A DNA stretch of 64,000 bases, from assembly GCF_029203285.1 (NCBI RefSeq), contig NZ_CP115669.1, positions 4,464,001-4,528,000 of the forward strand. Reading direction: 5' to 3'. Made by a program: the position numbers and the translations under genes. Numbering within the stretch: position 1 is the first letter of the stretch; each line of letters begins with the position of its first letter. Shown here one piece after another: positions 13,242-49,229 of this stretch. Source of the DNA: Pseudomonas sp. PSE14 (GTDB taxonomy: Bacteria; Pseudomonadota; Gammaproteobacteria; Pseudomonadales; Pseudomonadaceae). The notes beneath the pieces were generated by a model. That model saw nothing but the letters and a program-made list of their open reading frames with translations, made no database searches and was not told the DNA's origin.

Positions 13242-13322
13242 TGTAGGAGCGAGCTTGCTCGCGAACGGGTTTCCCCGACCACTCCGATGCTGGGCGGGTT
13301 CGCGAGCAAGCTCGCTCCTACA
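13242..13322. repeat. REP pair, GTAGGAGCG family (BIME-like)
   Basis: Two oppositely oriented copies of the GTAGGAGCGAGC...TTGCTCGCG motif face each other across about 30 bases, giving an 81-bp imperfect palindrome. The same motif recurs at 21383, 30234, 45538 and 49159. This is the common extragenic REP of Pseudomonas, located after mexL. Confidence 0.9.
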
Positions 13323-30035: not shown

Positions 30036-30233
30036 TACCTCCGGCGGCGCGGCCTGATGGCGCATTGTTCGGGCTTTTCGATGGGGAATCAATCGCCGCC
30101 TTGCGCTTGTTTCATTGCAACAGCACGGGGCTGGCATGGCAGTGCGGGCGGCGTGAAGTCCAGCCTGGGGTGTATGACGTGCTACATGACGTCCGAGCCA
30201 CTTGTGCGAGTGCACGGTTCGTCGGGAGCCCTT

Positions 30234-30312
30234 GTAGGAGCGAGCTTGCTCGCGAACGGATTTCCCGGTGGCATCGGAGCTGGGCGGGTTCGCGAGCAAG
30301 TTCGCTCCTACG
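30234..30312. repeat. REP pair, GTAGGAGCG family
   Basis: Two inverted copies (GTAGGAGCGAGC at 30234 and GCAAGTTCGCTCCTAC to about 30311) with about 30 bases between, nearly the same as the element at 13242. Confidence 0.88.
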
Positions 30313-42256: not shown

Positions 42257-42649
42257 ATGAAGGTATTGAAATTGTCGGCCGTACTGGCTGCCGCTGCGCT
42301 GTTGAGCGCCTGCGGTGGCAGTAACCAGGCCAAGGTCTGCGGTTCGGACGATGTGAAGAACCAGTTGGTGAAGATCTTCCTCAGTGGTTCGCTGTCCAGT
42401 CAGGCCGACGCCCTGACCAAGGCCGAGCTGAAGGACGTGGCGATCATCGAGAAGGACCCGGACAGCGGCGTGCTGGAATGCGTCGGCACGCTGTCGGTGC
42501 CGGTGGTTGGGCAGGTAGCGTCCGGCACCCTGAAATACCGCATCGCCCCGGCGGCCAAGTCGGATCACGACTACCTGCTGCTGTTGGCCGATGGCGATCT
42601 GGCCAATGCCTTCGCCAAGCGTATCGAGGGCATGATCCCGCGGCAGTGA
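42257..42649 (+). CDS. small lipoprotein of unknown function
   Basis: A 130-residue lipoprotein with lipobox LSAC (Cys19) and a mature part with two more cysteines (KVCGSDD, LECVG), resembling a small periplasmic alpha-beta domain. No family recognised. The start at 42257 has GGTGGA about 5 bases upstream. A strong terminator follows 20 bases after the stop. Confidence 0.8.
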   Translation: MKVLKLSAVLAAAALLSACGGSNQAKVCGSDDVKNQLVKIFLSGSLSSQADALTKAELKDVAIIEKDPDSGVLECVGTLSVPVVGQVASGTLKYRIAPAAKSDHDYLLLLADGDLANAFAKRIEGMIPRQ

Positions 42650-42668
42650 GGGTTATCCACAGATAGTG

Positions 42669-42695
42669 AAAAACCGGCCCATGTGGCCGGTTTTT
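42669..42695 (+). terminator. intrinsic terminator after the lipoprotein gene
   Basis: An 11-bp stem AAAAACCGGCC/GGCCGGTTTTT with loop CATGT is followed by TT; the A/T ends make it work in both directions. Confidence 0.93.
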
Positions 42696-42785
42696 TTATT
42701 GGGCGCGTTTTGTCGATGCGTCGAGGACAGAGCCCGCAATTGCGCGAGCGCACGACGCCGGTGTTCGCCAGGGGATACCGAGTCA

Positions 42786-42823
42786 TCCGCGATGGATTTC
42801 GCGGACAAGGTCCGCTCCTACGA
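42786..42823. repeat. REP-like hairpin (GCGGACAAGGTCCGC type)
   Basis: CCGCGATGGATTTCGCGG forms a stem with loop TGGATT and is followed by GGACAAGGTCC and GCTCCTACGA. A second copy of the 3' part is at 43311, and the final CTCCTACGA is shared with the GTAGGAGCG REPs. Confidence 0.7.
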
Positions 42824-42833
42824 ATAGCACTCC

Positions 42834-42943
<110 letters not shown>

Positions 42944-42998
42944 CTATTGAGGATTTCCAGCGAAGTATCCGCGCACTCCGGAGCGCCCCTTCAGGAGG

Positions 42999-43116
42999 CC
43001 GAGTGGAATCGGAGTTTCAGGGGTTGAGCGGCATGGATGCCGCGAGAGCGTCGTTGGGCCATGGATGGCCCGTCGACGCGGGCCCCTGAAACTTCGATGG
43101 AGCGAGGGAAACGAAG
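42999..43116 (+). ncRNA. candidate structured RNA with GGA hairpin loops (RsmA-binding type)
   Basis: Plus-strand folding by eye: hairpin CCGA/TCGG with loop GTGGAA (42999-43012); a 10-bp closing stem GTTTCAGGGG/CCCCTGAAAC (43014-43023, 43083-43092) enclosing two hairpins, one GCGGC/GCCGC with hexaloop ATGGAT (43028-43043), the other GCGTCG..GGGCC/GGCCC..CGACGC also with hexaloop ATGGAT (43048-43079); then CTTCG/CGAAG (43092-43116) with two GGA in its loop. Both hexaloops with their closing C-G pair read CATGGATG, an exact match to the RsmA consensus CANGGAYG. No promoter is evident and it may be a multicopy repeat, so RNA status is inferred. Confidence 0.45.
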
Positions 43117-43129
43117 CGCAGCGAAGTAA

Positions 43130-43254
43130 CAGCCGAAGGCTGGCCCGAAGGGTGAGCGAAGCGAATCAGTCCCGCGAAGCGGGACCCGGATGATGGGGCA
43201 GAGACTTTTGCCCACTTTGGGTCGTTTGCCAAAGTGGGTCGCCCGAGGGGGCGA
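43130..43254. repeat. run of stable hairpins, likely part of a larger multicopy element
   Basis: Four perfect hairpins in a row: CAGCC/GGCTG (43130-43142), GTCCCGC/GCGGGAC (43169-43185, loop GAA), CCCACTTTGG/CCAAAGTGGG (43211-43238, 8-base loop), TCGCCC/GGGCGA (43239-43254). Such density is not coding. I believe similar sequence is found between genes elsewhere in Pseudomonas, but cannot check. Confidence 0.6.
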
Positions 43255-43310
43255 AACAAAATCTCTCAGCCCACGCCGAAGCGGCGCAGAAACACCCAAC
43301 TCAGAAGAGC

Positions 43311-43337
43311 ATCGCGGACAGAGTCCGCTCCTACGGG
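43311..43337. repeat. second REP-like hairpin (GCGGACAGAGTCCGC type)
   Basis: GCGGAC/GTCCGC with CTCCTACGG after it repeats the 3' part of the element at 42786 in direct orientation. The two copies bracket the tandem repeat and hairpin block. Confidence 0.7.
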
Positions 43338-43386
43338 AGCCGTGCCGGGCCTGACCGGTATGCCCCCCAAGGCCCCCGTTGAGGAC

Positions 43387-43671
43387 TCAGAACCCTTCCA
43401 GATCGATCAACTCTCCCTCGAACGTCAGCCAACCGCCCTGTTCGTTCGCCGCGCCATCGCGGATTTCGCCGTAGTAGGACAACCCGTTGTCCAGCGTCAC
43501 GCAGACATGGGTGGGCTCCTCCGGCGCATCCAGCTGGCCGTCGAAGCTCAGCTTGATGATGCCCGGCTCCGGCGCGCTCAGGCTGGCCGGCACACGCGCG
43601 TTGTCCACCGCCTCGGTTTCACGCCCCCAGTGCTCGGCGCTGACGGTAACGGTGAGTAATGCCTGGCTCAT
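43387..43671 (-). CDS. small hypothetical protein, acidic beta-rich
   Basis: A 94-residue acidic protein with no signal or membrane helix. Alternating hydrophobic strands (ALLTVTVSAEHWG, GIIKLSFDGQLD, HVCVTLDNGLSYYGEI) suggest a small beta domain. The ATG at 43671 has GGAG 11 bases upstream. It has normal codon bias and lies alone between the repeat block and the MHS transporter gene. No family recognised. Confidence 0.65.
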   Translation of the reverse strand: MSQALLTVTVSAEHWGRETEAVDNARVPASLSAPEPGIIKLSFDGQLDAPEEPTHVCVTLDNGLSYYGEIRDGAANEQGGWLTFEGELIDLEGF

Positions 43672-43776
43672 GTTCGCTGGATCTCCGCAAAGGTCCCCGG
43701 CGCAACGCGCACCGGGCAATGCGGCAAGGGTATTCCAGCGGCGCCGCCCAGGCGAGCCCGGATCGCGCCGAATGAA

Positions 43777-49158: not shown

Positions 49159-49229
49159 GTGCTTGCTCGCGAACGTGTCAGGCTTTGGGGCCGACGAGGC
49201 GTTTGTTCGCGAGCAAGCTCGCTCCTACA
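49159..49229. repeat. REP pair, GTAGGAGCG family (left copy truncated)
   Basis: The right copy (TTCGCGAGCAAGCTCGCTCCTAC, split here as 49206-49228) is complete. The left one (GCTTGCTCGCGAACG, about 49161-49175) lacks its GTAGGAGCGA start. It lies between ecotin and the DUF4256 gene. Confidence 0.75.

Follow-up and report, generated by a model that had tools for sequence, protein, structure and literature searches.

What is the structured intergenic segment at positions 42999–43116 of the window (the whole 64-kb stretch of Pseudomonas sp. PSE14 DNA analysed here), and does it act as an RNA that binds RsmA? The initial annotation offered two answers, an unrecognised RsmA/RsmN sponge or a dispersed repeat whose transcripts bind RsmA. 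The main part of the structure was described correctly. On the plus strand a perfect 10-bp stem (43014–43023/43083–43092) encloses two hairpins, at 43028–43043 (loop 43033–43038) and 43048–43079 (loop 43061–43066), and in both of them C-AUGGAU-G is present and matches CANGGAYG. The stem lengthens to 43008–43023/43083–43098 (P1), with covariation supporting both strands. The minimum-energy fold pairs the first A of each AUGGAU loop with its last U, leaving UGGA; the sequence match is unaffected.

The segment is, however, not unrecognised. Its core matches Rfam family RF01731, TwoAYGGAY, at 43001–43105 of the plus strand with a covariance-model score of 45.8 bits (gathering cut-off 43); nothing else in the 64-kb window scores above an Rfam cut-off. 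The defining features of that motif, two AYGGAY-loop hairpins within a common outer stem, are present. RF01731 shares Rfam clan CL00106 with RsmY, and binding of CsrA by TwoAYGGAY has been proposed from a motif scan (PMC4333381). A 2025 preprint calls the motif "relatively unexplored" (PMC11661157), and among the matches listed, seen in part, the literature naming the motif contained no experiments on it.

We noted that CANGGAYG closed by at least five stacked pairs has two occurrences in the window, each of them inside the element, while 200 dinucleotide shuffles averaged 0.69 such motifs per window over both strands, with no close pair in any; the two RsmA-type hairpins are real and beyond chance. 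The region 42980–43290 folded more stably than all 100 shuffles on either strand (z −6.75 on plus, −8.11 on minus), so that fold stability alone cannot identify the strand. Across 20 diverse rows, 95.3% of the cells of 33 named pairs were paired, against 81.4% after shuffling, and 24 of the 33 pairs changed on both sides, against 12.9; none of 500 shuffles reached either value. Sliding the partner by one base lowered pairing to 38–39%, and RNAalifold, unaided, gave nearly identical structure. The corresponding model, R1, uses 20 of 46 non-redundant rows, the other 26 being omitted for insertions, gaps, truncation or the Pantoea form. The 46 rows were drawn from 236 matches in which hairpin 1 was obligatory, which is why hairpin 1 is almost invariant in this set.

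The polarity of the pairs distinguishes the strands. In the outer stem, 249 distinct rows give 280 G-U cells against 14 A-C; the figures for hairpin 1 are 4 and 1. The contrast in hairpin 2 is weak (78 against 61), perhaps partly because of one-base-shifted variants. When each row was folded on both strands, the plus fold was the more stable one for 244 rows of 249, and G-U pairs numbered 677 against 93. The structure under selection is that of the plus strand. RNA is the likelier but not the sole reading of this result, because a folded single DNA strand would give the same polarity.

The loops are conserved as well. We counted them in 249 distinct rows of at least 100 letters, from 303 matches of a loop-masked scan, and split the counts by source since the scanned loci had partly been fetched by loop-bearing queries. 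Of the 249 rows, 243 have GGA in the first loop and 242 in the second: 55 and 53 of 56 in the own genome, 23 and 25 of 26 in relatives found by DNA similarity, and 138 of 141 second loops in named contigs (fetched by the hairpin 1 pattern). Both loops read CANGGAYG in 229 of 249 rows (own genome, 49/56; DNA-similar relatives, 21/26; named contigs, 133/141; RF01731 relatives, 22/22; other, 4/4). In loop 2 the N position is G in 134, T in 89, A in 17 and C in 1, and Y is T in 216, C in 25 and G in 1. The second loop thus varies exactly at the positions that are free in the RsmA consensus, with GGA fixed. No other protein is known to follow a CANGGAYG rule. In the P. aeruginosa literature CANGGAYG is the RsmA consensus, and AUGGAUG is that of E. 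coli CsrA from CLIP-seq (PMC7705225). Junction positions 53–56 read GAGA in 231 of 249 rows, and GA flanks both sides of the hairpin 1 stem, an arrangement compatible with tandem G-A pairs; two tandem GAs in one stem have been named for TwoAYGGAY (PMC4333381). The host genome has one CsrA-family match and one clear rsmY.

Five GGA sites had been proposed in all; two are kept as loops and the other three are not. The additional hairpins (loop GUGGAA, and CUUCG/CGAAG) are excluded from the conserved fold because both draw on residues that the covarying outer and lower stems use: the former pairs alignment columns 8–11 with 18–21, and CUUCG occupies columns 101–105. In a lineage that reads GUUGAA, with T at column 14 in about 50 of 243 rows, the GUGGAA hairpin no longer has its GGA. 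The CGAAG of the other hairpin, at 43112–43116, falls in an extra segment (43110–43168) found in long-form copies, 11 of the 60 cores of the own genome.

The core appears to be the 5′ domain of an RNA of about 280 nt. The whole element, a long-form copy, spans 42985–43262 on the plus strand, from stem P0 to a 3′ GAAACAAAA tail; its blocks are conserved across copies, and its own minimum-energy fold (z −7.04) recovers P0, the three-way junction, the S2 hairpin and P6. P0 pairs GCCCC (42985–42989) with GGGGC (43195–43199), enclosing the core and hairpin P4 (GUCCCGC-GAA-GCGGGAC, 43169–43185), which other copies replace by other self-complementary cassettes. In the family, P0 reaches at least 5 bp in 143 of 176 distinct pairs (mean 5.38; with swapped partners, mean 4.85 and maximum 5.08). 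The 3′ block runs GGGG, a short segment, a pyrimidine tract and a long hairpin whose 3′ arm is rich in purines, and often ends in a small CG-closed hairpin followed by GAAA. In the window copy the last hairpin is P6 (CGCCC/GGGCG, 43240–43253), followed by GAAACAAAA; the P6 stem has at least four pairs in 37 of 49 parsed copies, with a mean of 4.49 against 3.14 for swapped strands (maximum 3.83).

Between P0 and P6 the letters suggest that a hairpin loop pairs back to the segment preceding it. By inspection, the short segment CAGAGAC (S1, 43199–43205) would pair with 43221–43223 and 43225–43228 in the loop (43221–43228) of the S2 hairpin CCCACUUUGG/CCAAAGUGGG (43211–43238), giving a candidate pseudoknot of seven pairs with one bulged G and one G-U, in which C43199 is also claimed by P0; the pyrimidine linker L1 is short here (UUUUG, 43206–43210). 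We examined 365 flanks and parsed 189 distinct ones for this domain. Of 19 distinct distant copies, 18 pair the S2 loop with the short segment over at least four bases (with swapped loops, mean 21% and maximum 58%), as do 98 of 170 Pseudomonas copies (swapped, 31%, maximum 37%). For Pseudomonas copies of the CAAGAC type the evidence is weak, barely above chance, with the S1 triplet complementary in 34 of 62 and 26.1 expected.

The linker also follows the hairpin. In 20 distinct purine windows the pyrimidine tract matched the purine arm, in parallel U-A/C-G sense, at 6.70 of 8 positions against 5.65 when permuted, and in antiparallel sense at 6.60 against 5.91, neither value being reached in 1,000 permutations. 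As both orientations exceed permutation, strand exchange by L1 is possible. Among 55 copies matching at 7 or more positions in either orientation, parallel was better in 26 and antiparallel in 11, with 18 tied. Over all 189 parsed copies the mean match was higher for antiparallel (5.52 against 4.99 of 8), matches of at least 7 numbered 45 in each orientation, and perfect matches were parallel in 29 and antiparallel in 8. The tract starts 0–1 base after the S1 strand in 38 of 47 qualifying copies, the register to be expected of a tract that occupies the stem's major groove, as it does in telomerase RNA. Judging from these comparisons of copies, the 3′ domain is probably a pseudoknot and possibly contains a triple helix. 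No Rfam family covered it at window positions 42600–43700 (to E 1) or in 20 further loci (to E 0.1), some of which lack the domain. A broad literature search found no repeat RNA combining a pseudoknot with a triple helix; prior publication is still possible. A pseudoknot in the 3′ domain whose linker changes along with the purine strand would add a new case from bacteria to the triple-helix RNA folds.

How far does the element reach? Among Pseudomonadaceae, 101 genomes of 148, spread over 15 of 19 genera, matched model R1 at E ≤ 0.001, some of them weakly. R1 also matched 49 of 369 genomes of the class in 42 of 272 genera, including the own genome and one family member; many of the named hits, among the matches listed, were Pseudomonas, Stutzerimonas and Pantoea. 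In an alignment fitted to the model, 38 distant R1 matches had 95.0% of cells paired against 55.2% shuffled, with both-side changes in 33 of 33 pairs. We did not accept class-wide homology from R1 alone, because the loop-masked model R2, under strict filters, found just 2 of the 369 class genomes, both in the family; the class-level R1 matches lean on the loops. When R2 was rescored on 28 fetched distant loci, 15 matched at E ≤ 1e-4, and RF01731 scored above cut-off at four distant gammaproteobacterial loci (L297, L298, L304 and L305 in our numbering). About half of the distant loci share the Pseudomonas 3′ block, though it is absent from both models: the module was parsed in 14 of 28, and 12 of the 28 showed the S1 and L1 features together, compared with 8 of 575 control windows taken from these loci, some of which may hold other copies. 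The other distant loci may be unrelated two-hairpin structures.

The suggestion of a dispersed repeat was borne out by the own genome. A 311-bp query gave at least 61 match pieces in its 5.98 Mb (40 of 82 candidates scored) and RF01731 at least 55 matches, at least 28 of them above cut-off (150 of 302 candidates scored). In 48 fetched stretches, a profile that masks the two loops recovered 60 nearly full cores; in one of these stretches, L051, hairpin 1 is destroyed. Copies are built of blocks: core, middle hairpin, 3′ hairpin block and then often (42 of 60) a REP-like palindrome. Four self-complementary versions of the middle hairpin account for 18, 18, 11 and 2 of the 60, the other 11 copies being long-form and unclassed. 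In the window the palindrome CATCGCGGACAGAGTCCGCTCCTACG lies downstream of the element at 43310–43335 and another REP-like palindrome lies upstream at 42788–42822. Fourteen relatives were matched, and in all five that aligned on both flanks the orthologous site lacked the element; one of them, G001, shows in place of the window's REP-element-REP a single REP-like palindrome, a counterpart of the upstream one. No phage or plasmid record matched the element (blastn, E 1e-5).

Several further features of the copies were seen. A perfect (GCTCTG)18.5 hexamer satellite directly adjoins the element upstream (42835–42945); similar arrays precede other copies (L065, L067, L077), with GGCTCTT in L047. 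Nine of 46 clusters of RF01731 matches contain two copies, in divergent order every time. In the divergent pairs of the own genome (L040, L041, L052, L060, L063, L065, L075, L078, L083) one partner is a distinct B type with compensating changes in the outer stem. Divergent order recurs at the distant loci L297, L298, L301, L304 and L313, and the pairs overall lie about 80–490 bp apart; L294 is convergent. A segment of about 13–17 nt, GGGGGACGCCTAGTTC or its reverse complement, occurs within element stems and REP-like palindromes: on the 3′ side of hairpin 2 in L044, L072 and L073, in the B-type copies L061, L070, L076, L058 and L051, and in many REP-like flanks, with related versions in P. argentinensis (L115), L106, L140 and L158. 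From its placement it looks like a tiny insertion targeting palindromes. On the minus strand, 43017–43259 is an 80-codon open frame; such frames may perhaps be annotated as repeated hypothetical proteins, and two minus-strand ORFs across the element had no Pfam match.

The siting of the copies is biased. Using gene calls from a home-made, heuristic ORF picker, we found 24 of 37 single-hit clusters of the own genome between convergent genes and none between divergent ones, with co-directional settings split into 6 sense and 7 antisense; at least four of the 37 (L058, L061, L070, L076) hold a second copy visible only to the loop-masked scan. In named contigs, the 33 loci that passed filters among 120 (L089–L208) gave 16 convergent, 9 sense against 8 antisense, and again no divergent setting. 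The parity of sense and antisense does not suggest selection for plus-strand read-through, and the near-even splits led us to drop a sense 3′-UTR element as a general rule.

Much of this would also be expected of a repeat that spreads at the DNA level, a MITE- or REP-like element moved as a folded single strand, whose transposase reads the hairpins and whose likeness to RsmA sites is coincidental. Such an element accounts for the high copy number, the polymorphic sites, the REP-like palindromes nearby and tail-to-tail siting with no sense bias, and its folded DNA strand would likewise retain G-T pairs on one strand. A transposase, however, need not yield CANGGAYG in both loops of 229 of 249 copies while leaving the N and Y of loop 2 free, and the flanking G-A, the covarying pseudoknot and the purine-tracking linker look more RNA-like. 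A Y1 transposase, searched for as PF01797, gave no match in the own genome, and mobilisation of the REP-flanked copies by such a RAYT was rejected on that ground. We regard the DNA-level explanation as unlikely.

The convergent siting and very stable folds could instead point to a transcription insulator, or a protector of mRNA 3′ ends at convergent genes, stabilised by RsmA or the pseudoknot. Against such a role, a hairpin resembling an intrinsic terminator (about 42670–42698, by eye) already precedes the window copy, placement is as often antisense as sense, and tail-to-tail bias is described as general in Pseudomonas intergenic repeats (PMC2718517, in the excerpt available); we judge it improbable. 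A terminator scan reported a minus-strand site only, and the same scan misses this evident terminator.

Signals for transcription of the window copy were sparse. The absence of a promoter noted in the initial annotation held: a scan for the sigma-70 consensus type found no site in 42600–43450. No GacA box lies near 42999–43116, and the six matches in the window at up to three mismatches compare with 5.23 expected, whereas the rsmY of the own genome has a perfect box; both were scored with the GacA upstream-box consensus. That search also drew attention to palindromic repeats of the TGTAGGAGCGAGCTTGCT type at window positions 13242–13322, 30233–30250 and 49212–49229. A classical GacA-controlled sponge gene of the RsmY/RsmZ type, despite the shared Rfam clan and the two RsmA-consensus loops, is already largely refuted at this locus by the missing promoter-like site and GacA box, the lack of conservation at the locus and the presence of just two conserved GGA loops, and we give it hardly any credence.

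The other answer, a dispersed repeat that would bind RsmA when transcribed, fits what could be computed. We favour the reading that the segment is one copy of an amplifying structured-RNA family that binds RsmA when its plus strand is transcribed, with a probability of roughly 55%. Its 5′ domain, the TwoAYGGAY three-way junction, would display the two CANGGAYG loops; these are spaced 28 nt apart, so that one RsmA/CsrA dimer could clamp both. In the 3′ domain the loop that pairs back, as an H-type pseudoknot, may fold or protect the RNA. A plus-strand transcript would bind RsmA and draw part of it off its mRNA targets, and many copies jointly could impose a background load. The RsmA-binding step is likely; titration large enough to matter physiologically is doubtful. 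Transcription is the weakest link, given no sigma-70-like promoter, no GacA box and no sense bias. Some copies might have promoters that escape a sigma-70 scan, or the plus strand might act at another stage, for example during copying. An extension of the favoured reading, in which class-wide mobile RNA genes combine a CsrA/RsmA clamp with a triple-helix pseudoknot, are copied through RNA in a SINE-like manner and form a distributed RsmA/CsrA sink, strikes us as a long shot.

The TwoAYGGAY motif and the CsrA-binding hypothesis were already known. New are the apparent place of the core at the front of a larger RNA and the high-copy, dispersed nature of the element, whose loops obey the RsmA rule. 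Should they be transcribed, the roughly 60 copies of one genome would provide about 100 intact sites of the RsmA consensus in addition to those of the Gac-controlled sponges, and every Rsm titration model would be affected. A catalogued, little-explored motif thereby gains a fuller anatomy and a sharp test.

Among known systems, the R-family repeats of P. fluorescens (PMC2718517) are likewise intergenic, structured and biased to tail-to-tail sites, and R178 (101 bp) and R200 (320 bp), compared by description, are near the element in size; the available excerpt of that paper, unlike our alignment, makes no mention of RsmA-type loops. With TwoAYGGAY itself the element shares the junction, the two AYGGAY hairpins and a score above the curated cut-off, whereas the Rfam model spans the 5′ domain only, leaving P0, P4, the pseudoknot and P6 outside, and the high-copy, dispersed nature lies beyond it; Rfam types the motif as Cis-reg, while the 2010 listing of PMC2864571, in the excerpt available, has it as probably RNA and probably not cis-regulatory. 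The sponge RNAs RsmY, RsmZ and CsrB resemble it in clan membership (RsmY) and RsmA-consensus loops; they carry many sites where the element keeps two, and the element has dozens of copies rather than one locus, with neither a promoter-like site nor a GacA box. H-type pseudoknots with major-groove triples are known from telomerase RNA, SAM-II and preQ1-II. The triples proposed here, inferred from covariation only, unsettled in orientation and offered with no claim of descent, would place the 3′ domain beside these RNAs, with which it shares the order S1-L1-S2-S1′-S2′ and a pyrimidine L1 that begins 0–1 nt after S1 (38/47).
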